This document shows, one piece after another, positions 1 to 8,654 of a stretch of DNA of 8,654 nucleotides. The notes beneath the pieces were generated by a model that was given only the letters and a program-made list of their open reading frames with translations, had not been told where the DNA came from and made no database searches. The translations under genes were made by a program, and so were the position numbers. Source of the stretch: an uncultured Bacteroidales bacterium (GTDB taxonomy: Bacteria > Bacteroidota > Bacteroidia > Bacteroidales > Bacteroidaceae). Position 1 is the first letter of the stretch; every line of letters begins with the position of its first letter. The stretch spans positions 1 to 8,654 of the forward strand of contig CAMBWV010000024.1 of NCBI GenBank assembly GCA_945871755.1, written 5' to 3'.

Positions 1-30
1 TAACATATCGCAACAGTTTGCGAAATGTTA
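1..30. repeat. 13-bp imperfect inverted repeat at the window edge
   Basis: TAACATATCGCAA (1-13) pairs with TTGCGAAATGTTA (18-30) around a four-base CAGT loop, with one mismatch. It lies 130 bp beyond the 3' end of the minus-strand carboxynorspermidine synthase gene and could be a terminator or an operator for a gene to the left of the window. There is no clear T-tract on the minus strand within the window. It touches the window edge, so the element may be longer than seen. Confidence 0.5.
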
Positions 31-161
31 AAAGACGAGTTTTGCACACATGAGGTTTCGCGATGTATTATATTACGAGGCAACTGGCAAATGCTTCATT
101 GTCTTGGTCGCAGCGGTGGCTGGTGAAACTGGTTTCAGCGAAGCATTCGGCTCATTGTTGC
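31..161. other. gene-free stretch downstream of the polyamine gene, with small inverted repeats
   Basis: I see no credible gene here. It holds AATGCTTC (90-97) and its reverse complement GAAGCATT (140-147), enclosing a smaller TGAAAC/GTTTCA pair (124-129 and 132-137). On the minus strand this lies directly after the stop of the gene that ends at 162, so it could fold as a transcript-end structure. No U-tract supports a standard intrinsic terminator. Confidence 0.3.
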
Positions 162-1385
162 TTAGAGTTCCAGGTCGCCGCCGAAGATTTCGTGCCAGGG
201 CAGACCCTGCTTGTTGAGTTCTTCCATGAAAGGATCGGGGTCGAACTCCTCTGCGTTCCATACGCCGGGACGCTTCCAGAGGCCGAGCATAAACATACGC
301 GCACCGATACAGGCGGGCACACCCGTTGTGTAGCTGACGCCCTGCATGCCCGTTTCCTCGTAGGCGGCGCGGTGGGAGCAGTTGTTGTAAACGTAGTACG
401 TCTGCTCCTTGCCGTCCTTCAATCCACGGATGCGGCAACCGATGCTGGTCTCGCCGTCGTAGTTCTCGCCGAGGTCCTGCGGGTTGGGCAGCACGGCCTT
501 GAGGAACTGGAGGGGAACAATCTTCACCTTGACGGGACCGCTGCCGTCGGCGGCTTCGGCGGTGTATTCGAGTTCGTCGATGCGCGACATGCCGATATTC
601 TGAATAACGTCGAGGTGCTTCAGGTACTGCTCGCCGAAGGTCATCCAGAAGCGGGCGCGCTTGATCGTCGGGTAGTTCTTCACGAGGCTCTCAATCTCCT
701 CGTGGTGGAGGAGGTAGCTCTCCTTCGGACCAATATTGGGATAGGTCAGGGGCTGGTGAATCTCGAGGGGCTCGGTCTCCACCCACTGGCCATCCTGCCA
801 GTAGAGGCCCTTCTGCGTGATCTCGCGGATGTTGATTTCGGGGTTGAAGTTGGTGGCGAAGGCTTTGTGGTGGTCGCCGGCATTGCAGTCAACGATGTCG
901 AGATACTGGATTTCGTCAAAGTGGTGCTTGGCTGCATAGGCCGTATAAATGCTCGTCACACCGGGGTCGAAACCGCAACCGAGGATGGCCGTGAGACCAG
1001 CCTGCTCGAAGCGCTCCTTGTAAGCCCATTGCCAGGAATACTCGAAGTGTGCCTCGTCCTTGGGCTCGTAGTTGGCCGTGTCGAGATAGGAGCAGCCGCA
1101 CTGCAGACAGGCTTCCATGATGGTGAGGTCCTGGTAAGGCAGGGCGAGGTTCATGACGAGGTCGGGCTTGAACTCGTTCATGAGGGCGCAGAGTTGCTCC
1201 ACGCTGTCGGCATCCACCTGTGCCGTTTTGATGTCGGGCCGACCGATGGCCTTGACGATGGCATCGCACTTTGACTTCGTGCGGCTGGCAATCATGATTT
1301 CACTGAATACGTCGGTATTCTTTGCCACCTTGTGGGCAGCAACGGTGGCCACGCCACCCGCACCGATAATTAGAACTTTTCCCAT
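162..1385 (-). CDS. carboxynorspermidine synthase (saccharopine dehydrogenase-like), polyamine synthesis
   Basis: This is a 407-residue cytosolic NAD(P)H-dependent oxidoreductase. It has an N-terminal Rossmann motif (VLIIGAGGVA, residues 4-13). Further conserved blocks are NLALPYQDLTIMEACL (79-94), the LDTANYEP segment (101-108) and GCGFDPGVTS (136-145). This pattern is that of the carboxynorspermidine/carboxyspermidine dehydrogenase branch of the saccharopine dehydrogenase family. These enzymes reductively join aspartate semialdehyde to a diamine (putrescine or diaminopropane); a separate decarboxylase (NspC) then gives spermidine or norspermidine. No nspC gene is in the window. The length is normal for the family and the protein runs intact to a TAA stop. 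The start at 1385 puts the Rossmann strand right at the N-terminus, as expected. No Shine-Dalgarno sequence is visible. The leader carries a heptamer repeat and a hairpin array that separates it from recA. A lysine-pathway saccharopine dehydrogenase is the alternative, but the sequence fits the polyamine enzyme better. Confidence 0.88.
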   Translation of the reverse strand: MGKVLIIGAGGVATVAAHKVAKNTDVFSEIMIASRTKSKCDAIVKAIGRPDIKTAQVDADSVEQLCALMNEFKPDLVMNLALPYQDLTIMEACLQCGCSYLDTANYEPKDEAHFEYSWQWAYKERFEQAGLTAILGCGFDPGVTSIYTAYAAKHHFDEIQYLDIVDCNAGDHHKAFATNFNPEINIREITQKGLYWQDGQWVETEPLEIHQPLTYPNIGPKESYLLHHEEIESLVKNYPTIKRARFWMTFGEQYLKHLDVIQNIGMSRIDELEYTAEAADGSGPVKVKIVPLQFLKAVLPNPQDLGENYDGETSIGCRIRGLKDGKEQTYYVYNNCSHRAAYEETGMQGVSYTTGVPACIGARMFMLGLWKRPGVWNAEEFDPDPFMEELNKQGLPWHEIFGGDLEL

Positions 1386-1410
1386 ATTTCGTTGATTTGA
1401 ATTTTAATTT

Positions 1411-1438
1411 GGAATGAGGAATGAGGAATGAGGAATTA
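1411..1438. repeat. four tandem 7-bp repeats (GGAATGA) in the synthase gene leader
   Basis: Three exact copies of GGAATGA (1411-1417, 1418-1424, 1425-1431) are followed by one variant, GGAATTA (1432-1438). On the coding (minus) strand the unit reads TCATTCC, and the array starts 26 nt before the ATG of the gene that begins at 1385. Short arrays of this sort can change copy number by replication slippage. Any effect on expression is inference. Confidence 0.9.
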
Positions 1439-1461
1439 GCTCTGCGCCTTAGGCGCAGAGC
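1439..1461. repeat. perfect hairpin with 10-bp stem and TTA loop
   Basis: GCTCTGCGCC (1439-1448) is exactly complementary to GGCGCAGAGC (1451+1 to 1461), with TTA (1449-1451) as a three-base loop. It is stronger than any hairpin in the neighbouring array but has the same three-base loop. It could terminate minus-strand transcription from recA, although no clean U-tract follows on that strand. Confidence 0.85.
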
Positions 1462-1477
1462 ACGTGTTGGCTGAAAG

Positions 1478-1611
1478 AGACTATTGAGCTAGCAGCCGCA
1501 GGCTGCGTTGGAACTAGGGGGACGCAGTCCCCGAATGAATCTAGGAAGCCACAGGCTTCCGTTGAAACTAGGGAGCAAAGCGACCGTTGAAACTAAGGTC
1601 GCGCAGCGACC
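1478..1611. repeat. array A of short three-base-loop hairpins with GTTGAAACTA-like linkers
   Basis: Five hairpin units follow one another on the + strand. They are GCAGCC-GCA-GGCTGC (1492-1506), GGGGAC-GCA-GTCCCC (1518-1532), GGAAGCC-ACA-GGCTTCC (1544-1560), a decayed GGGAGC-AAA-GCGACC (1571-1585) and GGTCGC-GCA-GCGACC (1597-1611). The linkers are GTTGGAACTA, a divergent GAATGAATCTA, then GTTGAAACTA and GTTGAAACTAA. The stems differ in sequence, yet four of five are perfectly self-complementary and every loop has three bases. The array begins with AGACTATTGAGCTAGCAGCC, which matches the start of array B (7556) with two differences. It lies antisense to the flanking minus-strand genes. I know no named family that matches; a REP-like palindromic element is the nearest concept. 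Confidence 0.88.
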
Positions 1612-1616
1612 GCCGT

Positions 1617-2639
1617 CTAGTCCACCTTCTTCTTGAGTTCCTCAGCAATCTTGGCTTCGATTTCCTCGCAGAGTTCAGGATTGTCGGCCAGCATACGCTT
1701 GACGGCATCGCGGCCCTGACCAATCTTAGCGTCTTCGTAGCTGTACCACGAGCCGCTCTTCTTGAGGATGCCCAGCTCGGTGCCAAGGTCCACGAGTTCG
1801 GCAATGTGGTTGATACCCTCGCCGAAGCTGATTTCAAACTCGGCCTTGCGGAAGGGAGGTGCCACCTTGTTCTTGACCACCTTGACGCGCACCTGATTGC
1901 CGATGGGCGTGTCGCCATCCTTGAGTGTGGTCACACGGCGGATGTCCATGCGCACGCTGGCGTAGAACTTGAGCGCGTTACCGCCCGTTGTCGTTTCGGG
2001 ATTGCCAAACATGACGCCAATCTTCTCGCGCAACTGGTTGATGAAGATACACGTGGTGTTGGTTTTGCTGATGGAGGAAGTCAGTTTGCGCAAAGCCTGG
2101 CTCATGAGGCGGGCCTGGAGTCCCACCTTGTTGTCGCCCATGTCGCCTTCGATTTCAGCCTTGGGCGTGAGGGCGGCCACGGAGTCGATGACAATGATAT
2201 CGATGGCCGAGGAGCGAATCAACTGGTCGGCAATCTCAAGGGCCTGCTCGCCGTTGTCGGGCTGGGAGATAAGGAGCTCGTCGATATTGACACCGAGTTT
2301 GGCGGCATAGAAACGGTCGAAGGCGTGCTCGGCATCGATGAAAGCAGCAATACCTCCGTTCTTCTGCGCCTCGGCAATGGCATGGATGGCCAGCGTGGTC
2401 TTACCAGAAGATTCGGGACCGTAGATTTCGATGATACGTCCCTTGGGATATCCGCCCACTCCGAGGGCAGCGTTGAGGGCAATGCTGCCCGTGGGGATCA
2501 CTTCGACCTCTTCAATTTGCTCGTCGCCCATCTTCATGATGGAACCCTTGCCAAAGTCTTTCTCAATCTTGAGCATCGCAGCCTGGAGGGCCTTGAGCTT
2601 CTCGCTATTTGCGCTTGCGTTGATTTCTTCTTTTGCCAT
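1617..2639 (-). CDS. recA: recombinase RecA
   Basis: This is a full-length, 340-residue RecA. It forms filaments on single-stranded DNA, drives homologous pairing and strand exchange, and acts as co-protease for LexA-type repressors. Visible motifs are Walker A GPESSGKT (74-81), the catalytic glutamate region IDAEH (101-105, Glu104), Walker B DIIVIDS (147-153), the allosteric glutamine in INQLREKIG (Gln202) and the L2 DNA-binding loop ending [20 protein letters not shown] (211-230). The C-terminal tail is lysine- and glutamate-rich. The start at 2639 gives a normal N-terminus ([19 protein letters not shown]) with the usual N-terminal helix. No intein or truncation is present. The gene lies 70 nt downstream of the PUR-domain gene on the same strand and may share its transcript. 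No recognisable TAnnTTTG box or SOS operator is visible in those 70 nt. The stop codon is five bases from hairpin array A. Confidence 0.99.
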
Positions 2640-2709
2640 ATATTATAGATAAGTATTAGTACTTTTTGGGGAGGAGGGTGTGGACTCGGGGGGGCTGAAA
2701 ATTGCAGGA

Positions 2710-3339
2710 TTAAAAATCCACGTTGAAGTCGGCGTCGCCCTTAGGCATCTGCGGTGCGGAGTCCGTGGGATTGGTAGGCTGTGTGCGATTCTCCATGCGG
2801 TCGAACGAGGGACGGCGATTGAAGCCTCCAGTGCGGGGCACGTAGGTGCGGTTGAACGTGGTGCGACGCTCTGCAAAGGCGGGACGCTGGCGGCGACTCA
2901 TCTCGAAGTCGTCGTTGTAGCCATAGCCCTCGCGCGAGAAATAGCTGTCGGTGGAGCGGTAATTGCTCTCGAGCGACGTGGGCGTGGGATTGGGATTGTA
3001 GGGCAGGCCGTCGGCATAGGAATCCGAGTAGGAGTCCGAATAGCGCGGGCGCGGCGCTGGGTTGTTGGCCTGGACATAGCCCACGGCCTCCTGAAATGCC
3101 TGTACGAAGCGGTCCATATCTTCGCGATAAAGGAAAATCTTGTGCTTCTCAAACACTGGGCGCTCCTCGTCCGTTCCATCCTTAATGCGCTTGCTCTCCG
3201 TGATGGACAAATAGTTCTCGCCATGGCGATCGCGCTTCACATCCACATAATAAACACGCTTGCCCGCTTTAATCGAGCGCGAGAAAAGGATGTCGCTATC
3301 GGCCGTCCGCTCTCTCATCGAATCTTTATTGAAATCCAT
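2710..3339 (-). CDS. PUR-domain DNA/RNA-binding protein (DUF3276) with a long disordered tail
   Basis: This 209-residue protein has two parts. Residues about 14-92 form a single PUR-alpha-like domain (DILFSRSIKAGKRVYYVDVKR, then YLSITESKR, then KIFLYREDMDRFVQAFQEAV). This is the DUF3276 type common in Bacteroidota and related to Borrelia Bpur; such domains bind single-stranded DNA or RNA. Residues 93-209 are low-complexity and predicted disordered by eye: an SDSY repeat (101-108), proline and asparagine runs, and many arginines spaced with tyrosine or phenylalanine (for example FNRTYVPRTGGFNRRPSF, 162-179). The protein ends in an acidic, aromatic patch (DADFNVDF). It is the first gene of the minus-strand block, 70 nt before recA. 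The ATG at 3339 is preferred; Met8 is a possible alternative start that would keep the whole domain. Its specific role here is unknown. Confidence 0.9.
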   Translation of the reverse strand: MDFNKDSMRERTADSDILFSRSIKAGKRVYYVDVKRDRHGENYLSITESKRIKDGTDEERPVFEKHKIFLYREDMDRFVQAFQEAVGYVQANNPAPRPRYSDSYSDSYADGLPYNPNPTPTSLESNYRSTDSYFSREGYGYNDDFEMSRRQRPAFAERRTTFNRTYVPRTGGFNRRPSFDRMENRTQPTNPTDSAPQMPKGDADFNVDF

Positions 3340-3650
3340 AAAGTAAATTATATAAGTAAAAAAGGTTTTGTTGGTTCAGTCATCAAAAGGTTGGTAGTTG
3401 TCAAGCCAGCATCGGTCTCCGCGTTGCTTCCCTACGCATCTTTGAAGGCAAGAAATCCTACGAAATTTCTCGCTACACCGCACAAAATTGCATTAAAAAT
3501 TCCGAACAGGGCCTAAAAAGTAGGAAGAAAATGCTGTAGCCCCCCAAATTTTTCGTATTTTTGCCTCCGCCAAGCCATGCTGGAGGGGCTTTTTCAGTGG
3601 AAAATCCATAGACCTGCGGCGCTCGGATGGCCATAACATTTCACAGCAAT
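3340..3650. other. divergent intergenic region between the PUR gene and nusB
   Basis: About 310 bp without a supported gene. The left part (3340-3375) is AT-rich and serves as the PUR gene leader. The central part (about 3400-3520) is oddly gene-like in composition, with one open frame on the + strand to a stop near 3516 and a small inverted repeat, AGAAAT (3451-3456) with ATTTCT (3465-3470). The right part holds a good -7 box for nusB (3556-3563), a CCTCC/GGAGG pair (3564-3568 and 3582-3586) with five T after it (3590-3594), and the nusB leader. No CAAAnnTA (a minus-strand -7 box) was found for the PUR gene. Confidence 0.6.
3556..3563 (+). promoter_or_regulatory. Bacteroidota-type -7 box for nusB
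   Basis: TATTTTTG matches the TAnnTTTG -7 consensus of Bacteroidota housekeeping promoters and sits in an AT-rich context (AAATTTTTCG just before it). I see no clear TTTG-like -33 element at the usual 19-21 nt spacing. Transcription would be expected to begin near 3570, leaving a leader of about 80 nt before the nusB ATG at 3651. This is likely the promoter of nusB and possibly of the genes after it. Confidence 0.6.
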
Positions 3651-4595
3651 ATGATAAACCGCGAACTGATCCGACTGAGGATTGTCCAGTTGACCTACGC
3701 CTACTACGTGGGCGAGGGCAAACCTATGGACGTCGCTGAAAAGGAACTCTTCTTTTCCTTTGACAAGGCTCACGAATTGTATCTCTATCTGCTCTCCGTC
3801 CTGGTGAAGGTGCATCGCCTTGCCATCCACAAGAACGAAGCACGCATCGCCAGAATGACCCGCCAGGGCAACAACCCCGACGGTATCTTCCCCGAAAGAA
3901 TGCTGGCGGAGAACAAATTCCTCGTCCAGCTCAACGAAAACGAGACCCTCGCTGCCTATATGGAGAAAAAGAAGGACTGGATTGAGGAAGACGCCTTCAT
4001 CAAGAAACTCTACGCAGCCTTCACCGAAAGCAGCATCTACGAGCTCTACCTGACGAAGGAGGAGTTCGACTATGAAGCCGACCGCGAAGTGGTGCGCAAA
4101 CTCTATAAGACGTTCGTGCAAGGCAACGAGGATTTCGACAATCTCATTGAGGACCACTGCATCTACTGGAACGACGACAAATTCCTCATCGACTCCTTCG
4201 TGCTCAAGACTATCAAGCGCTTCACGCCCGAGTCCACGCCCGAGCAGGAACTGCTGCCCAAGTTCACGTCCGACGAGGACAGCGAATTTGCCCTCCAGCT
4301 CTTCCGCGCTGTCATTGCCCGCGCCGACGAGACCCGCGAGATTATTCGCGCCAACGCCCGCAACTGGGACCTTAGCCGCATGGCCTTCATGGATGTCATC
4401 ATCATGCAGATTGCCCTGGCCGAGATATTGGAGTTCCCCAGCATCCCGCTGAGCGTCAGCATCAACGAATACCTCGACATAGCCAAGGTGTACAGCACGC
4501 CCCGCAGCGCCTCCTATATCAACGGCCTGCTCGACAACGCCGTCAAGAAGTTGCGCGCCAACGGCACCATCCTCAAGGAGCGCACAACCAAATAG
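3651..4595 (+). CDS. nusB: transcription antitermination factor NusB, long Bacteroidota form
   Basis: This is a 314-residue protein. The C-terminal part (about 238-303) is a clear NusB fold: NWDLSRMAFMDVIIMQIALAEIL, then IPLSVSINEYLDIAKVYSTP and SYINGLLDNAVKKL. The first helix of the fold (INRELIRLRIVQLTYAYY, 2-19) is at the N-terminus, so some 200 residues are inserted between helix 1 and the rest. Ordinary NusB has about 140 residues; the long form is usual for this phylum. NusB, with NusE (S10), joins the antitermination complex on rRNA transcripts. I chose the ATG at 3651 because the family begins MINRxLIRxxIVQ; the ATG at 3627, in the same frame, would add eight residues (MAITFHSN) with no family support. 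It is the first gene of the plus-strand cluster and is followed by yajC after 65 nt. Confidence 0.95.
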   Translation: MINRELIRLRIVQLTYAYYVGEGKPMDVAEKELFFSFDKAHELYLYLLSVLVKVHRLAIHKNEARIARMTRQGNNPDGIFPERMLAENKFLVQLNENETLAAYMEKKKDWIEEDAFIKKLYAAFTESSIYELYLTKEEFDYEADREVVRKLYKTFVQGNEDFDNLIEDHCIYWNDDKFLIDSFVLKTIKRFTPESTPEQELLPKFTSDEDSEFALQLFRAVIARADETREIIRANARNWDLSRMAFMDVIIMQIALAEILEFPSIPLSVSINEYLDIAKVYSTPRSASYINGLLDNAVKKLRANGTILKERTTK

Positions 4596-4660
4596 GCAGG
4601 CGACCTCCCCACCCCACATTAGAAACATTTACATAACCCATACAAAAACTCACACTACAC

Positions 4661-4969
4661 ATGAACGCAATCACACTCTTGCAGGCAGCCGCTGGTGGCG
4701 GTGGTCTCGAAATGATTATCATGATGGTTATTCTCTTCGCCATCGTATATTTCTTCATGATTCGTCCCCAAAACAAGAAGCAGAAGGAAATCCAGAAGTT
4801 CCGCGACGCTCTCAGCGTGGGACAGGACGTTGTCACCATCGGTGGCATTCACGGACAGGTGAAGAATATCGACGACAACATCATCACCCTTGAAATTGCC
4901 ACGGGCACCAAGGTGAAGTTCGAGAAGAGCGCCATCATGCCCGCAGGCACCGCTCCCGAGCAGAAATAA
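4661..4969 (+). CDS. yajC: preprotein translocase subunit YajC
   Basis: This is a 102-residue small membrane protein. It has a short N-terminus with a glycine run, one membrane span (about residues 17-34, MIIMMVILFAIVYFFMI), the family signature RPQNKKQKE (35-43), and a small beta-rich cytosolic domain with VTIGGIHGQV (58-67). YajC associates with SecDF and the SecYEG translocon at the inner membrane. Length and order of parts are normal for the family. The ATG at 4661 places the span correctly. It lies between nusB and the YbbR-like gene, its usual position in Bacteroidales, and is probably cotranscribed with nusB; no separate promoter box was found in the 65 nt before it. Confidence 0.97.
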   Translation: MNAITLLQAAAGGGGLEMIIMMVILFAIVYFFMIRPQNKKQKEIQKFRDALSVGQDVVTIGGIHGQVKNIDDNIITLEIATGTKVKFEKSAIMPAGTAPEQK

Positions 4970-5054
4970 TCCTCGGCACACCTATATATATAGGAGTATC
5001 TCCACACAGCTAACCAGCGGCACACCTTTCTCTGTGCCCTAATCCCCCACGAAG
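4970..5054 (+). promoter_or_regulatory. yajC-ybbR intercistronic region with three small inverted repeats
   Basis: The 85 nt between the genes contain a perfect 14-bp palindrome CCTATATATATAGG (4981-4994). An overlapping hairpin GGAG-TAT-CTCC (4993-5003) follows it. A third pair, GGCACA (5019-5024) with TGTGCC (5033-5038), lies 16 nt before the next ATG. They could act in RNA processing or translation of the downstream gene. No U-tract follows, so these do not look like intrinsic terminators. The function is unknown. Confidence 0.45.
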
Positions 5055-6032
5055 ATGACTTCCCGGAATTTCAAAAGTATATGGAACTGCTTGTCCCTCA
5101 TCTGGAACAAGCAGTTCCTTGTTTTCTTGTTTTTCCTCTGTCTCTCGGCCTCCTTCTGGCTGTTTGAGGTACTCAACGAGACGACCGAGCAGGAGATAGA
5201 AGTGCCCATCGAGATACGGGGCATCCCCGAAGAGGTAGTCATCACGAGCGACCTGCCCGAGTTCACCCGCGCCACCCTCCGCGACAAGGGTGTCACGCTC
5301 ATGGGCTACCACTTCGGCGGCATCGTGCGCCCCATCGTGCTCGATTGGAAAAGCATCAGCAACTCCAAGGGCCACGTGCGCATCCTGCCCAACGAGCTGC
5401 GCCGCCAACTGAGCGCACAACTCTCGCAGGGCACGCAGATTGTGAGCATGCGCCCCGACACCCTCGAGTTCTATTACAACTACGGCCTGCGCAAGCGCGT
5501 GCCCGTTGCTCTGAAGGGCAACCTCCAAGCGGCCCAAGGCTACGAAATCACGCACACCCGCTTCCTGCCCGACAGCGTGACGGTGTATGCCTCCAACGAG
5601 ATTCTCGACAACATCAAAGCGGCCTACGTCAAGCCCGAATATCTCAAGAACATCGCCGACTCCACCACGCTCCAGCTCGACATCCAGCGCGTGCGGGGCG
5701 TCAAGTTTGAGCCCTCGCGCGTCAAGTTGCAAATCTTCTCCGACCGCCTCGTTGAGAAGCGCGTCAAGCTCTCCGTGCAGTCGCAAGGCTTCCCCGCGGG
5801 CAAACAGCTGTTGCCCATTCCGCAGGAGGTGGAGGTGGCATTCTACGTGCCCATGAGCATGTACAGAAGCATTGACGCCTCAGCCTTCGCCGTGTCTGTG
5901 CACTACAAGGACCTGCCCACCGACGGCAGCACCAGTTGCCCCGTCCGCGTTGACAAGGCGCCCGATGGCGTCACCCGCGTGCGCACCATCCCCGCCGCCA
6001 TCGAGTATGTCATCGAAGATACCAAGAACTAG
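5055..6032 (+). CDS. YbbR-like (CdaR-type) membrane-anchored protein
   Basis: This 325-residue protein begins with a short cytosolic stretch and one hydrophobic span (about residues 20-39, QFLVFLFFLCLSASFWLFEV). The rest is periplasmic beta-rich sequence without lipid-attachment or catalytic motifs. The YbbR repeat signature is seen in RVPVALKGNLQAAQGYEITHTRFLPDSVTVYAS (about 147-180), and the following part has similar but weaker repeats. In Firmicutes, YbbR/CdaR binds and regulates the c-di-AMP synthase CdaA; whether the Bacteroidota form does so is not established by this sequence, and no cdaA gene is in the window. It lies in the conserved nusB-yajC-ybbR-coaE order and ends 10 nt before coaE, which suggests coupled expression. 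The start at 5055 is the only one that keeps the membrane span near the N-terminus. Confidence 0.85.
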   Translation: MTSRNFKSIWNCLSLIWNKQFLVFLFFLCLSASFWLFEVLNETTEQEIEVPIEIRGIPEEVVITSDLPEFTRATLRDKGVTLMGYHFGGIVRPIVLDWKSISNSKGHVRILPNELRRQLSAQLSQGTQIVSMRPDTLEFYYNYGLRKRVPVALKGNLQAAQGYEITHTRFLPDSVTVYASNEILDNIKAAYVKPEYLKNIADSTTLQLDIQRVRGVKFEPSRVKLQIFSDRLVEKRVKLSVQSQGFPAGKQLLPIPQEVEVAFYVPMSMYRSIDASAFAVSVHYKDLPTDGSTSCPVRVDKAPDGVTRVRTIPAAIEYVIEDTKN

Positions 6033-6042
6033 TCCCACGGCC

Positions 6043-6648
6043 ATGCCCCATTCCTCCTCCCCCACCCCCCTTCGCCTAGCCGTCACGGGCGGCATCGGCA
6101 GTGGCAAGAGTTTCGTCTGCCGCCGCTTGGAGGACCGCGGGATTCCCATCTTCTACTGCGACAACGTGGCGAAGCAACTCCTGCGCACGGACACCGAGGT
6201 GCAACGCGCGCTCAGCGAACTCGTCGGCCCAGAGTTGTTTGAAGGCGGATGGCTCCACAAGGAGCTCCTGCGCGACTACCTCCACCAGGGCAGCGAGGCA
6301 GCCGACCGCGTCAACGCAATCGTCCATCCCCGCGTGGCAGCAGCCTTCCGCCAATGGTGCGACAGTCAGGCCGCCGCGAGCCACCGCCTCCTCTGCATGG
6401 AGTGCGCCCTGCTCTTCGAATCAGGTTTCGACCGCCTTGTGGACCGCACCGTCCTCGTCACCGCGCCCCTCGAAGTACGCCTCTCGCGCGTCATGGCCCG
6501 CGATGGAGTCAGCCGCGAAGTAGCCCGCTCGTGGATGCGCCTGCAGATGGCCGAAGAGGAGAAGGCCCGCCGTGCCGATATCATCTTGGACAACACCGAC
6601 AGCCCCGACCTTGGCGTCATCCACAGCCTCCTTCAAATGAGACAATGA
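6043..6648 (+). CDS. coaE: dephospho-CoA kinase
   Basis: This 201-residue enzyme phosphorylates the 3'-hydroxyl of the ribose of dephospho-CoA with ATP, the last step of coenzyme A synthesis. Visible motifs are the P-loop TGGIGSGKS (15-23), the substrate-site motif YCDNVAK, the IVHPRV segment, CALLFESGFD, and a lid-type region RSWMRLQM followed by ADIILDN near the C-terminus. Length and motif order are normal. The start at 6043 puts the P-loop 15 residues in and lies 10 nt after the stop of the YbbR-like gene; upstream in-frame starts would overlap that gene widely and add non-family sequence. Codon use is strongly biased to C-ending codons, as in the genes before it. It is the last gene before a 288 bp gap. 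Confidence 0.96.
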   Translation: MPHSSSPTPLRLAVTGGIGSGKSFVCRRLEDRGIPIFYCDNVAKQLLRTDTEVQRALSELVGPELFEGGWLHKELLRDYLHQGSEAADRVNAIVHPRVAAAFRQWCDSQAAASHRLLCMECALLFESGFDRLVDRTVLVTAPLEVRLSRVMARDGVSREVARSWMRLQMAEEEKARRADIILDNTDSPDLGVIHSLLQMRQ

Positions 6649-6690
6649 AACATTTCGGCAGCGGCTCGCCAAAGCAAGACAAACCATAGC

Positions 6691-6705
6691 GCAACGGGTC
6701 GTTGC
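6691..6705. repeat. isolated 6-bp hairpin with three-base loop
   Basis: GCAACG (6691-6696) pairs with CGTTGC (6700-6705) around GGT. The format (six-base perfect stem, three-base loop) is the same as in hairpin arrays A and B, but no GTTGAAACTA linker lies beside it, so it may be unrelated. Confidence 0.7.
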
Positions 6706-6844
6706 ACCTCCTAGTCTATAGAGCCTGCAAGCACAACCACATGGCAGCGGAAAGCCGCAGCGAAGAGTGGTAAAGAGCCTGACAAATGGCGACCGAATCC
6801 GCACTTGGTCCCCTCAAGACTGCGCCCATTCCAAATAAATATTG

Positions 6845-6852
6845 TACCTTTG
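6845..6852 (+). promoter_or_regulatory. Bacteroidota-type -7 box for the DUF5606 gene
   Basis: TACCTTTG is an exact match to TAnnTTTG and is preceded by an AT-rich stretch (AAATAAATATTG). A clear -33 element is not visible. The expected start of transcription is near 6859, about 78 nt before the ATG at 6937. It sits at a natural boundary between coaE and the next gene. Confidence 0.7.
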
Positions 6853-6936
6853 CCCGCGCAATCAATCACAAGGGGCAGGTCAATAGCGACCCGCCACAAA
6901 CCAATTCCAGAAAATACCTATAGAACCAACCTCAAC

Positions 6937-7377
6937 ATGAAAGAAACCATTCTCGCCATCTCTGGCAAGCCCGGCCTCTACCGCCTCGTTGCACGTGGCA
7001 ACGGCAATCTGATTGTGGAATCTATCGACGAGCAGAAGCGTCGCATCACCGCTGGTTCGCGCGACCGCGTCACCTCCCTCCGCGATGTCTCCATGTACAC
7101 CATGGACGACGACAAACCCCTCATGGAGGTATTCGAATCCATCAAGGAAAAGTACAACGCCCAGCCCGTTGACATCCAAACCAGCAAGGCCGACAAGGCA
7201 CAGCTCTTCGCCTTCCTCGACGAAGTATTGCCCGAAAACGATGCCGACCGCATCTACCCCGGCGATGTCAAGAAGCTCATCCAGTGGTACAACATCCTCG
7301 TGCAGGCAGGCTACACCGACTTCCTCGAAGCCGATGAGCAGGAAGAAGCCAACGCCGAGGCTGCCCCCGCAGAATAA
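6937..7377 (+). CDS. DUF5606 family protein of unknown function
   Basis: This is a 146-residue protein restricted, as far as I know, to Bacteroidota. The N-terminal motif MKETILAISGKPGLYRLV with the following NLIVESIDEQKRRI is the family hallmark, a small beta-rich segment (about 1-60). A more helical part follows (61-130), with LFAFLDEVLPENDADRIYPGDVKKLIQWYNILVQAG. The tail (131-146) is acidic and alanine-rich. There is no signal peptide or membrane span, so it is probably cytosolic. The start at 6937 is chosen because the family begins at this point; an in-frame ATG at 6805 would start before the promoter box. It has its own likely promoter (6845-6852), and a perfect inverted repeat follows 26 bp after its stop. 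The biochemical function is unknown; the cluster position gives no firm clue. Confidence 0.88.
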   Translation: MKETILAISGKPGLYRLVARGNGNLIVESIDEQKRRITAGSRDRVTSLRDVSMYTMDDDKPLMEVFESIKEKYNAQPVDIQTSKADKAQLFAFLDEVLPENDADRIYPGDVKKLIQWYNILVQAGYTDFLEADEQEEANAEAAPAE

Positions 7378-7403
7378 TCCCCGCCCACACCCAACGGGCA
7401 AAC

Positions 7404-7452
7404 ATTGGGCCTATATCGCAGACATCCCATCCCCAAGCGATATAGGCCCAAT
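7404..7452. terminator. perfect 16-bp inverted repeat after the DUF5606 gene, probable terminator
   Basis: ATTGGGCCTATATCGC (7404-7419) is exactly repeated in reverse complement as GCGATATAGGCCCAAT (7437-7452), with a 17-base loop. It begins 26 bp after the DUF5606 stop codon and would form a very stable RNA stem, so transcript termination or 3' end protection is the simplest role. The following bases (TCCTTTCC) are only weakly T-rich. An operator for a dimeric regulator or the ends of a small mobile element are less likely alternatives. Confidence 0.6.
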
Positions 7453-7465
7453 TCCTTTCCAAGTT

Positions 7466-7485
7466 CTCCTATATATAATAAGGAG
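7466..7485. repeat. CTCCT/AGGAG inverted repeat with AT-rich loop
   Basis: CTCCT (7466-7470) and AGGAG (7481-7485) flank an all-A/T loop. The first twelve bases, CTCCTATATATA (7466-7477), are the exact reverse complement of 4985-4996 in the yajC-ybbR gap. The low complexity means chance is possible. Confidence 0.4.
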
Positions 7486-7505
7486 TAAGCCCCCCGTAGT
7501 AATGC

Positions 7506-7537
7506 AAAAAGCAGGCAAGGCAATAGCCAAAGCCTGC
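7506..7537 (-). terminator. possible minus-strand intrinsic terminator
   Basis: GCAGGC (7511-7516) pairs with GCCTGC (7532-7537), and an inner GGC/GCC pair (7519-7521 and 7526-7528) closes an AATA loop. Five A (7506-7510) precede it, so a minus-strand transcript would have a stem followed by U5. No minus-strand gene lies to the right in the window, so it would stop only antisense transcription; on the plus strand the T-tract is poor. Confidence 0.35.
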
Positions 7538-7555
7538 CACAAACTTTCATAGCTT

Positions 7556-7695
7556 AGACTATCGAGCCAGCAGCCAAAGGCTGCGTTGAAACAGGAAGCC
7601 CGAAGGGATTCCCTGAAACTAGGAAGCCGCAGGCTTCCGTTGAAACCTGAAACTAGGTCGCGCAGCGACCATAACAACCAGGTCGCAAAGCGACC
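7556..7695. repeat. array B of short three-base-loop hairpins with GTTGAAACTA-like linkers
   Basis: Five hairpins: GCAGCC-AAA-GGCTGC (7570-7584), GGAAGCCC-GAA-GGGATTCC with one internal mismatch (7594-7612), GGAAGCC-GCA-GGCTTCC (7622-7638), GGTCGC-GCA-GCGACC (7656-7670) and GGTCGC-AAA-GCGACC (7681-7695). The linkers are variants of GTTGAAAC and CTGAAACTA, except ATAACAACCA before the last hairpin. The array starts AGACTATCGAGCCAGCAGCC, two differences from array A at 1478, and uses the same stem types in the same order. It ends 16 bp before the nitroreductase ATG and would lie in that gene's 5' leader if transcribed. Confidence 0.88.
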
Positions 7696-7711
7696 GTTGA
7701 CCCCCAAAGCC

Positions 7712-8452
7712 ATGCTAAAAAACCGACAAACCATCCGCCGATACGCCAACCGCCCCGTTGACCGCGCCCTTATCAACCGTCTCCTCACCGAAGCCGAGCG
7801 CACACAAACCATGGGCAATCTCCAGCTCTACAGCGTTGTCCTCACGGAGGACCCTACCCAGAAGGAGCAACTAGCCCCCTACCATTTCAACCAACCCATG
7901 GTGCGCCAAGCCCCCGCGCTCCTCACCTTCTGCGCCGACTTCCACCGCGTCACCCGCTGGTGTGAAGAACGCGAGGCCGACCCAGGCTACGACAATTTCC
8001 TCTCCTTCCTCAATGCCGCCACCGATGCCCTCCTCTATTGCCAAACCTTCTGCACCCTAGCCGAAGCCGAAGGTCTGGGCCTCTGCTACCTAGGCACCAC
8101 CCTCTATTCGCCGCAGGACATCATCCGCATCCTCCACCTCCCGCGCCTAGTCATGCCCATCGCCACCATCACCCTAGGTTGGCCCGACGAGCAGCCCGCT
8201 CCCACCGACCGCCTACCCCTCTCCGCCATCCTCCACGAAGAAACCTACCACTCCCCCACCCGCGCCGACATCGACCGCGACTACAAGCCCAAGGAATCCC
8301 TACCCGAAAACCAAGAATTCCTACGCATCAACGACAAACAAACCCTAGCCCAAATCTTCACCGACCTCCGCTACACCCGCCGCGACAACGAAGCCATCAG
8401 CCAAACCCTACTAGCAACCCTCCGCCAACAGGGTTTCCTCGAGAAGGAGTAA
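7712..8452 (+). CDS. nitroreductase family protein (NfsA/FRP-like, FMN-dependent)
   Basis: This 246-residue protein has the nitroreductase fold. It shows the N-terminal FMN-phosphate motif NRQTIRRYANRPV (4-16), NLQLYSVV (36-43), and the helix NAATDALLYCQTFCTLAEAEGLGLCYLGTT (101-130). PIATITLGWPDEQPAPTDRLPL (149-170) follows, then the C-terminal extension typical of the NfsA/FRP group, which reduces nitro compounds, quinones or flavins with NAD(P)H. The natural substrate is not known. I chose the ATG at 7712 because the family motif begins there; the open frame continues upstream to an ATG at 7586, which would add 42 residues encoded by hairpin array B. Leucine codon use is odd: 12 of 34 leucines are CTA, a codon I did not see in nusB. 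The stop codon lies inside the first, degenerate unit of a tandem repeat. Confidence 0.9.
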   Translation: MLKNRQTIRRYANRPVDRALINRLLTEAERTQTMGNLQLYSVVLTEDPTQKEQLAPYHFNQPMVRQAPALLTFCADFHRVTRWCEEREADPGYDNFLSFLNAATDALLYCQTFCTLAEAEGLGLCYLGTTLYSPQDIIRILHLPRLVMPIATITLGWPDEQPAPTDRLPLSAILHEETYHSPTRADIDRDYKPKESLPENQEFLRINDKQTLAQIFTDLRYTRRDNEAISQTLLATLRQQGFLEKE

Positions 8453-8654
8453 CGCAGAAGGACCGCACCTTGCTGCCCAAAGATTGTGACGTGAATAAGG
8501 AGTTCGTTCTCATTGCAAGGCATAGGAAGTAACGTGAAAGTACCGCACCTTGCTAGCAACGTGTGAGTAAGGAGTTCGTTCTCATTGCAAGGCATAGGAA
8601 GTAACGTGAAAGTACCGCACCTTGCTGTGCAAGGTGTGAGTAAGGAGTTCGTTC
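8446..8654. repeat. 72-73 bp tandem repeat running off the window
   Basis: One 72-bp unit (8496-8567) and one 73-bp unit (8568-8640) are followed by the first 14 bases of a third (8641-8654). The units are identical over their first 59 bases and differ only in the segment after ACCTTGCT. A degenerate partial unit precedes them (about 8446-8495) and covers the nitroreductase stop codon. In the second unit CACCTTGC (8618-8625) and GCAAGGTG (8629-8636) form a perfect hairpin with a TGT loop; in the first the same stem has a mismatch. There are no unique spacers, so it is not a CRISPR array. The true copy number cannot be seen. It looks noncoding, as the one-base difference in unit length shifts the minus-strand frame. 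Confidence 0.9.

Follow-up and report, generated by a model that had tools for sequence, protein, structure and literature searches.

In the genome of a bacterium from the Prevotellamassilia group, an intergenic repeat of roughly 130 bases is present in at least 52 copies, each with a conserved head followed by a series of short hairpins. We find that the hairpin arms pair far beyond chance, that loops, closing pairs and mismatches obey the rules of a single strand, and that the tail of the array, but not its head, tends to abut a gene. The best reading of these arrays is a new family of REP-like mobile repeats. The fuller account, that the repeat has multiplied within its species through a single-stranded DNA intermediate, with an array strand predicted to fold into stable DNA mini-hairpins, strikes us as evenly poised between right and wrong. 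If it is true, Bacteroidota hold a REP-like repeat family whose selected form is legible from the letters: loops, closing pairs and mismatch types would agree in indicating a single folded strand, in the simplest case DNA.

Two arrays in the window and their kin across the genome

The window, the whole stretch of 8,654 nt that was analysed (contig CAMBWV010000024.1 of assembly GCA_945871755.1, positions 1–8,654), contains two arrays on the plus strand. Array 1 (1479–1611) consists of a head, five hairpins and linkers, and is flanked by a saccharopine-dehydrogenase-like gene (162–1385, minus strand) and by recA (1617–2639, minus strand), with its tail 5 nt from the recA stop codon. The head of array 1, GACTATTGAGCTA (1479–1491), is its version of the head shared by the 52 arrays. 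Hairpin 1, GCAGCC-GCA-GGCTGC (1492–1506), and hairpin 2, GGGGAC-GCA-GTCCCC (1518–1532), have perfect 6-bp stems and GCA loops; hairpin 3, GGAAGCC-ACA-GGCTTCC (1544–1560), has a perfect 7-bp stem and an ACA loop; hairpin 4, GGGAGC-AAA-GCGACC (1571–1585), has two adjacent G·A mismatches and an AAA loop; and hairpin 5, the tail, GGTCGC-GCA-GCGACC (1597–1611), again has a perfect 6-bp stem and a GCA loop. They are joined in turn by the linkers GTTGGAACTAG (1507–1517), GAATGAATCTA (1533–1543), GTTGAAACTA (1561–1570) and GTTGAAACTAA (1586–1596). A preliminary description of this DNA had reported five hairpins between recA and the neighbouring gene, four of them perfectly paired and all with three-base loops; these features are borne out at 1492–1611, and we add that the array begins earlier, at the conserved head, and that a further array, built in the same way, occupies 7557–7695 of the window. 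Array 2 comprises the head GACTATCGAGCCA (7557–7569) and five hairpins (7570–7695), the second of which, GGAAGCCC-GAA-GGGATTCC, contains one G·A mismatch; its tail lies 16 nt upstream of the start codon of a nitroreductase-like gene.

Both arrays belong to a numerous set. The source assembly (1,633,276 bases in 350 contigs, 66.67% complete) contains the linker GTTGAAACTA 86 times, against 4 occurrences of the reversed control, and GACTATCGAGC 41 times, against none. The preliminary description had allowed for the case that few or no other copies exist in the genome; the 86 linkers against 4 dispose of it. A scan for hairpin runs over 146,493 fetched bases of the assembly returned 63 clusters, 52 of which have the head; the count of at least 52 arrays requires the head and at least two linkers, which drops the other 11 clusters. 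The common head is GACTATCGAGCCA, 42 of the 52 arrays have four to six hairpins, the loops are mainly of three bases, the linkers resemble GTTGAAACTA, and the length from head to last hairpin has a median of 136 nt (range 79–333). Slot 1 carries the stem GCAGCC/GGCTGC in 43 of the 52 arrays, slot 3 most commonly GGAAGCC/GGCTTCC (19), and slots 4 and 5 most commonly GGTCGC/GCGACC or GGGAGC/GCGACC, with slot numbers slightly blurred by a few arrays in which the first hairpin of the scan lies ahead of the head. What had been called a modular mix of stems thus holds in so far as the stems vary, but the fixed head and the slot-preferred stems restrict that freedom. Two arrays (G000:C9:6561–6776 and G000:C157:1948–2267) seem to have been enlarged through local duplication; between them they show three AGTCGC-GCA-GCGACT units serially at one tail and two tandem array units.

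Other repeats lie close to the window arrays. The head of array 1 is adjoined by an inverted repeat whose 11-bp arms match perfectly around a single-base spacer (the GCTCTGCGCC-T-TAGGCGCAGAGC region, 1439–1461) and by a sub-threshold match to the uup family of Rfam (1430–1461; 22.1 bits against a gathering score of 36.8). The window has no match to Rfam 15 at the gathering score, and uup is the sole match at E values up to 1. A run of 3.7 copies of the heptamer GGAATGA occupies 1411–1436, and similar heptamer runs occur within 250 nt of 13 of the 52 array heads. A 72-bp tandem repeat (2.3 copies, 8491–8654) lies 3′ of the nitroreductase-like gene. With up to 2 mismatches allowed, the assembly contains 50 copies of its core (reversed control, 0), many of them near contig ends, where the repeat may break the assembly, and this core falls within 250 nt of 3 of the 52 heads. 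We counted neither the heptamer runs nor the 72-bp core as parts of the array.

Pairing, loops and folding of the array strand

Complementarity of the arms was assessed on segments of 13–22 bases lying between linker or head motifs, which were therefore not chosen for pairing. Of the 221 such segments, scoring was confined to two length classes, 15 nt (132 segments) and 17 nt (44), leaving out 45 of other lengths; as a control, right arms were redealt among segments in 2,000 shuffles. Pairing is seen in 724 of 792 cells of the 15-nt class, where shuffled arms give 473.4 ± 17.4 (maximum 537), and 95 segments are perfect, against 29.9. The excess persists among the 33 distinct 15-nt sequences (178 of 198 cells against 116.0 ± 7.3). 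It is weaker for the 17-nt class, with 286 of 308 cells pairing against 256.1 ± 3.6 over all 44 segments and 84 of 105 against 62.4 ± 4.4 over the 15 distinct sequences. The earlier proposal that selection or copying acts on structure rather than sequence is supported by this pairing far beyond shuffled arms; the outcome named as its counter-evidence, stems no more complementary than shuffled sequence, was not seen.

The hairpins also follow rules that distinguish the two strands. All 132 hairpins of the 15-nt class have a C-G closing pair. Their loops are GCA (65), GAA (41), AAA (22), AGA (2), TAA (1) and ATA (1), so that every loop ends in A and 106 of the 132 are of the GNA type; the flipped loops TGC, TTC and TTT do not occur among them. 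Mismatches in this class are G·A or A·G in 61 of 68 cases and would be C·T on the complementary strand. A single arm pair, GGGAGC/GCGACC, recurs in 29 of the 132 hairpins and supplies many of these mismatches, so independent G·A events are few; among distinct 15-nt sequences, G·A makes up 13 of 20 mismatches. This arm pair resembles a cross between GGGAGC/GCTCCC and GGTCGC/GCGACC, both of which occur, while the reciprocal cross, GGTCGC/GCTCCC, is absent among the 132 hairpins. The 17-nt class obeys the rules less well: the closing pair is C-G in 38 of 44, G·A accounts for 9 of 22 mismatches, and the loops, mostly GCA (33 of 44), include AAG (3) and CTT (1).

GNA mini-hairpins are exceptionally stable as DNA, and tandem G·A pairs are likewise stable in DNA. 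GNA triloops with a sheared G-A pair are named for DNA in the cited part of PMC9828363. The early promoters of phage N4, which are read by the virion RNA polymerase, contain a short hairpin with a three-base loop that was detected extruded from DNA at a superhelical density of −0.035; as the cited part of PMC4496689 sets out, extrusion requires a C-G closing pair together with a 5′ G and a 3′ A in the loop, and that G and A form a sheared pair. The array hairpins resemble these promoters in short stem, loop and closing pair, with 106 of the 132 in the 15-nt class having the closing C-G, the 5′ G and the 3′ A, and the 22 AAA loops lacking the 5′ G. They differ in being chromosomal and present in large number.

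Perfect stems might also arise with no selection on the fold, as a mutational by-product of replication template switching that copies one arm onto the other, a process able both to create and to maintain such stems according to the cited part of PMC8794818. It should be strand-neutral and flip loops, however, and the count of flipped loops is 0 of 132; the G·A arm pair persists in 29 copies; and copy number, head and gene-edge polarity would be left unexplained. We regard this as a very improbable account of the arrays, although template switching may contribute to the matching of arms without giving the strand bias.

Predicted folding separates the strands in the same direction. The array strand is predicted to fold more favourably than its complement in 48 of the 52 arrays under DNA parameters and in 36 under RNA parameters; the mean energy gap between array strand and complement is nevertheless larger for RNA (−2.25 kcal/mol) than for DNA (−1.71 kcal/mol). 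Of 260 local hairpins, the array strand keeps 159 and the complement 143 in DNA folds, against 146 and 119 in RNA folds. Because RNA parameters favour the array strand too, and with the larger gap and hairpin excess, these models indicate a preferred strand and do not single out DNA over RNA; it is the loop rule, with its likeness to N4, that argues for DNA. In the window, the last two hairpins of array 1 merge in both DNA and RNA folds, while those of array 2 merge in the RNA fold alone, all five hairpins staying separate in the DNA fold. The RNA folds of both window arrays are better than those of shuffled sequences.

Polarity of placement at gene edges

Gene calls for the placement analysis came from a codon-usage script and are approximate. 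On these calls, 35 of the 46 arrays with a called gene on the tail side have no more than 25 nt between that gene and the tail, and none of the 46 with one on the head side has its head so close (minimum 38 nt); median gaps are 8.5 nt for tails and 178 nt for heads. Both flanks are called for 40 arrays, and the tail is this close to a gene in 30 of them; 5,000 random placements of the same 40 gave 6.5 on average and 16 at most. Tails adjoin a stop codon in 25 cases and a start codon in 10, with gaps of 5–24 nt to the start; in 9 of the 35 tail-abutting arrays the gap is slightly negative, the called frame overlapping the last hairpin. Read in array orientation as head gene and tail gene, flanking strands are −− in 22 arrays, ++ in 13, −+ in 4 and +− in 1. 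Convergent gaps thus hold 1 of the 40 arrays, compared with 25 of 140 gaps in stretches from congeners (Fisher p = 0.011). This sharp polarity is a pattern that every account of the arrays must explain.

One such account is a cis-acting DNA boundary, kept by selection, in which extruded hairpins would absorb torsion or bind protein between the gene edge and the gap. The polar placement (35 of 46 tails against 0 of 46 heads, and 30 of 40 against a random maximum of 16) fits it, as does the scarcity of arrays in convergent gaps, which contain no gene start, and the GNA rule recalls that of N4 extrusion as the cited part of PMC4496689 gives it. A general need for such a boundary is not apparent, with two relatives having no array at recA and 56 of 57 congeners unmatched, and a scan for sigma-70-type promoters, a type that may not be the host's, gave 5 against 3.5 ± 1.8 in shuffled sequence. 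We consider a boundary unlikely. Still more doubtful, in our estimate, is the bolder version in which hairpin arrays extrude chromosome-wide in living cells and form polar boundaries, with the tail docked on a reading frame and the head towards the regulatory gap, selected as one folded DNA strand with GNA loops and tandem G·A pairs. Extrusion through GNA hairpins is known at natural supercoiling, and the arrays would make a chromosome-wide bacterial use of it testable.

The arrays could instead act at the RNA level, as transcribed leaders or trailers that affect mRNA stability, termination or translation. They adjoin coding ends, so many are probably transcribed; the RNA folds of both window arrays beat shuffles; two window-array hairpins scored as terminator-like on the minus strand; and published REPs are thought to act as RNA in the cited part of PMC3733652. 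Yet in 25 of the 35 tail-abutting arrays the array strand, with its GNA loops and G·A pairs, runs antisense to the gene at the tail, which speaks against a role in sense mRNA. In addition, no clear T-run follows the hairpins, Rfam gives no match at the gathering score, and RNA folding merges neighbouring hairpins in array 2. An RNA-level element seems to us improbable. In Prevotella bryantii, structure near the start codon lowers translation (PMC3155529, in the part cited), and by analogy arrays ahead of start codons may carry a cost.

Distribution, relation to known repeats and the search for a mover

The array is nearly confined to one species. Among 61 genomes, the exact array pattern matched the source genome alone, and in 58 genomes of the genus a DNA search recovered the source and one weak copy (71% identity, genome G031). 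Among 84,980 species genomes, a collection that may omit the source genome, the exact hairpin-plus-linker pattern matched one locus, in Prevotellamassilia timonensis An873. We take this locus and the G031 copy to be one, and hence a single copy outside the source genome. It breaks the gene-edge rule, with called frames about 120 nt before the head and about 290 nt after the tail, and its fold beats shuffled sequence by little, 10 of 200 shuffles being equally good. A looser pattern gave 1 match in six congeners, no more than the 3 of the reversed control. At the recA loci of 29 congeners the same next gene was recognised in two (G066 and G001), where the gap, measured from the stop codon's first base, is 75 and 78 nt and has no array, against 234 nt in the source. 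Judged from these sequences, the recA copy would most simply be a gain in the source lineage. For array 2, no nitroreductase start was found behind the upstream gene in the six relatives, among eight loci, that could be read, and these loci do not serve as a second empty-site comparison.

A scan for similar designs in other letters, over 22 stretches from 20 congener genomes (403,908 bases), found 3 clusters of hairpins with three-base loops, 1 with four-base and 3 with five-base loops, at a low sensitivity that flags 24 source arrays against 63 clusters in a laxer scan and misses the G031 copy. By eye, none of these clusters has the array head or linker. One congener (G004, L201 490–685) has tandem hairpins with four-base loops and a different sequence. 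A phage or plasmid origin was set aside, as array 1 is unmatched in phage and plasmid collections at E 0.01 and the hairpin-plus-linker pattern is matched 0 times among viral contigs.

Modular design and drifting letters each have precedents. BOX elements of Streptococcus are intergenic repeats built of different sub-units in variable number, though their modules are not each a mini-hairpin, and the double-hairpin elements of organelle genomes are scattered intergenic hairpin repeats whose letters diverge while the hairpins remain. The repetitive hairpin-forming elements of sponge mitochondria share these latter traits with the arrays (PMC2800124, in the part cited); those are organellar, whereas the arrays are bacterial.

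The closest likeness is to REP, BIME and REPIN repeats. According to the cited part of PMC3733652, REPs and BIMEs are short intergenic hairpins in many copies, often species-specific, and many REP families have stems of 6–9 bp and short loops near gene 3′ ends, within less than 20 bp, yet are common between converging genes. The arrays too are short intergenic hairpins in many copies (52 headed arrays, 86 linkers), nearly confined to one species and placed near genes, so the REP-like format named in the preliminary description was apt. Unlike REPs, they rarely lie between converging genes, their stems vary within one element, and no GTAG/CGTC tag stands at the hairpin foot: by eye, nearly all inspected linkers and heads end before the stem in ACTA, ACCA, CTAA, AACA, GCCA or GCTA. 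REPINs are inverted doublets in the cited part of PMC3116915, in contrast to the arrays, which are a direct series of hairpins behind one head, although some whole arrays sit head to head. Nor, by eye, do the inspected tails carry a mirror of the head of the kind expected from the terminal inverted repeats of a MITE. The array repeat works like a REP; because of the results for the tag and the inverted doublets, we keep it apart from the REP family proper. None of the open-licence papers surveyed, judged by title and the opening of the abstract, describes it.

The preliminary description had pointed to a RAYT-type transposase, and here its suggestion fares poorly: the assembly, 67% complete, yielded no RAYT, which leaves a REP/RAYT link unsupported. 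The sole Y1 transposase gene found there (G000:C87:5015–5359, L031; 151 aa) scores 54.1 bits with the IS200 model (cut-off 55) and 20.1 with the RAYT model (cut-off 80). Its motifs are, by eye, those of subclass 1.2, which the cited part of PMC6006769 lists as without REPs. Y1 matches occur in 28 of 58 genomes including the source, or 27 of 57 congeners, whereas the array is matched in 1 of 57 congeners. With a score far below the RAYT cut-off, different palindromes around the gene and this mismatch in distribution, a RAYT is not supported as the mover in the assembly as it stands.

We favour copying through single-stranded DNA, against which stands the lack of a fitting transposase in the assembly; the mover may be encoded in the third of the genome that this assembly, 67% complete, does not cover, or may have been lost. 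The array strand would be exposed as single-stranded DNA at replication, or extruded by supercoiling, and the folded array strand of DNA would be the form recognised. The array would then be copied in trans by an enzyme of single-stranded DNA that recognises structure, most likely of the HUH type, and copies would survive with the tail against a reading frame and the head facing the rest of the gap. Gene-edge placement would reflect either survival or action as a boundary. If this account is right, one could use the arrays to test which enzyme copies a repeat devoid of the GTAG tag.

Palindromes of another kind surround the Y1 genes themselves. The gene on contig C87 is surrounded by GCCCTGAAAGGGC palindromes, and that of G031 (L118) is flanked by others; both sets are apparently unlike the array hairpins. 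A degenerate array (C87:2011–2253) lies on the same contig as the first of these genes, about 2.8 kb away.
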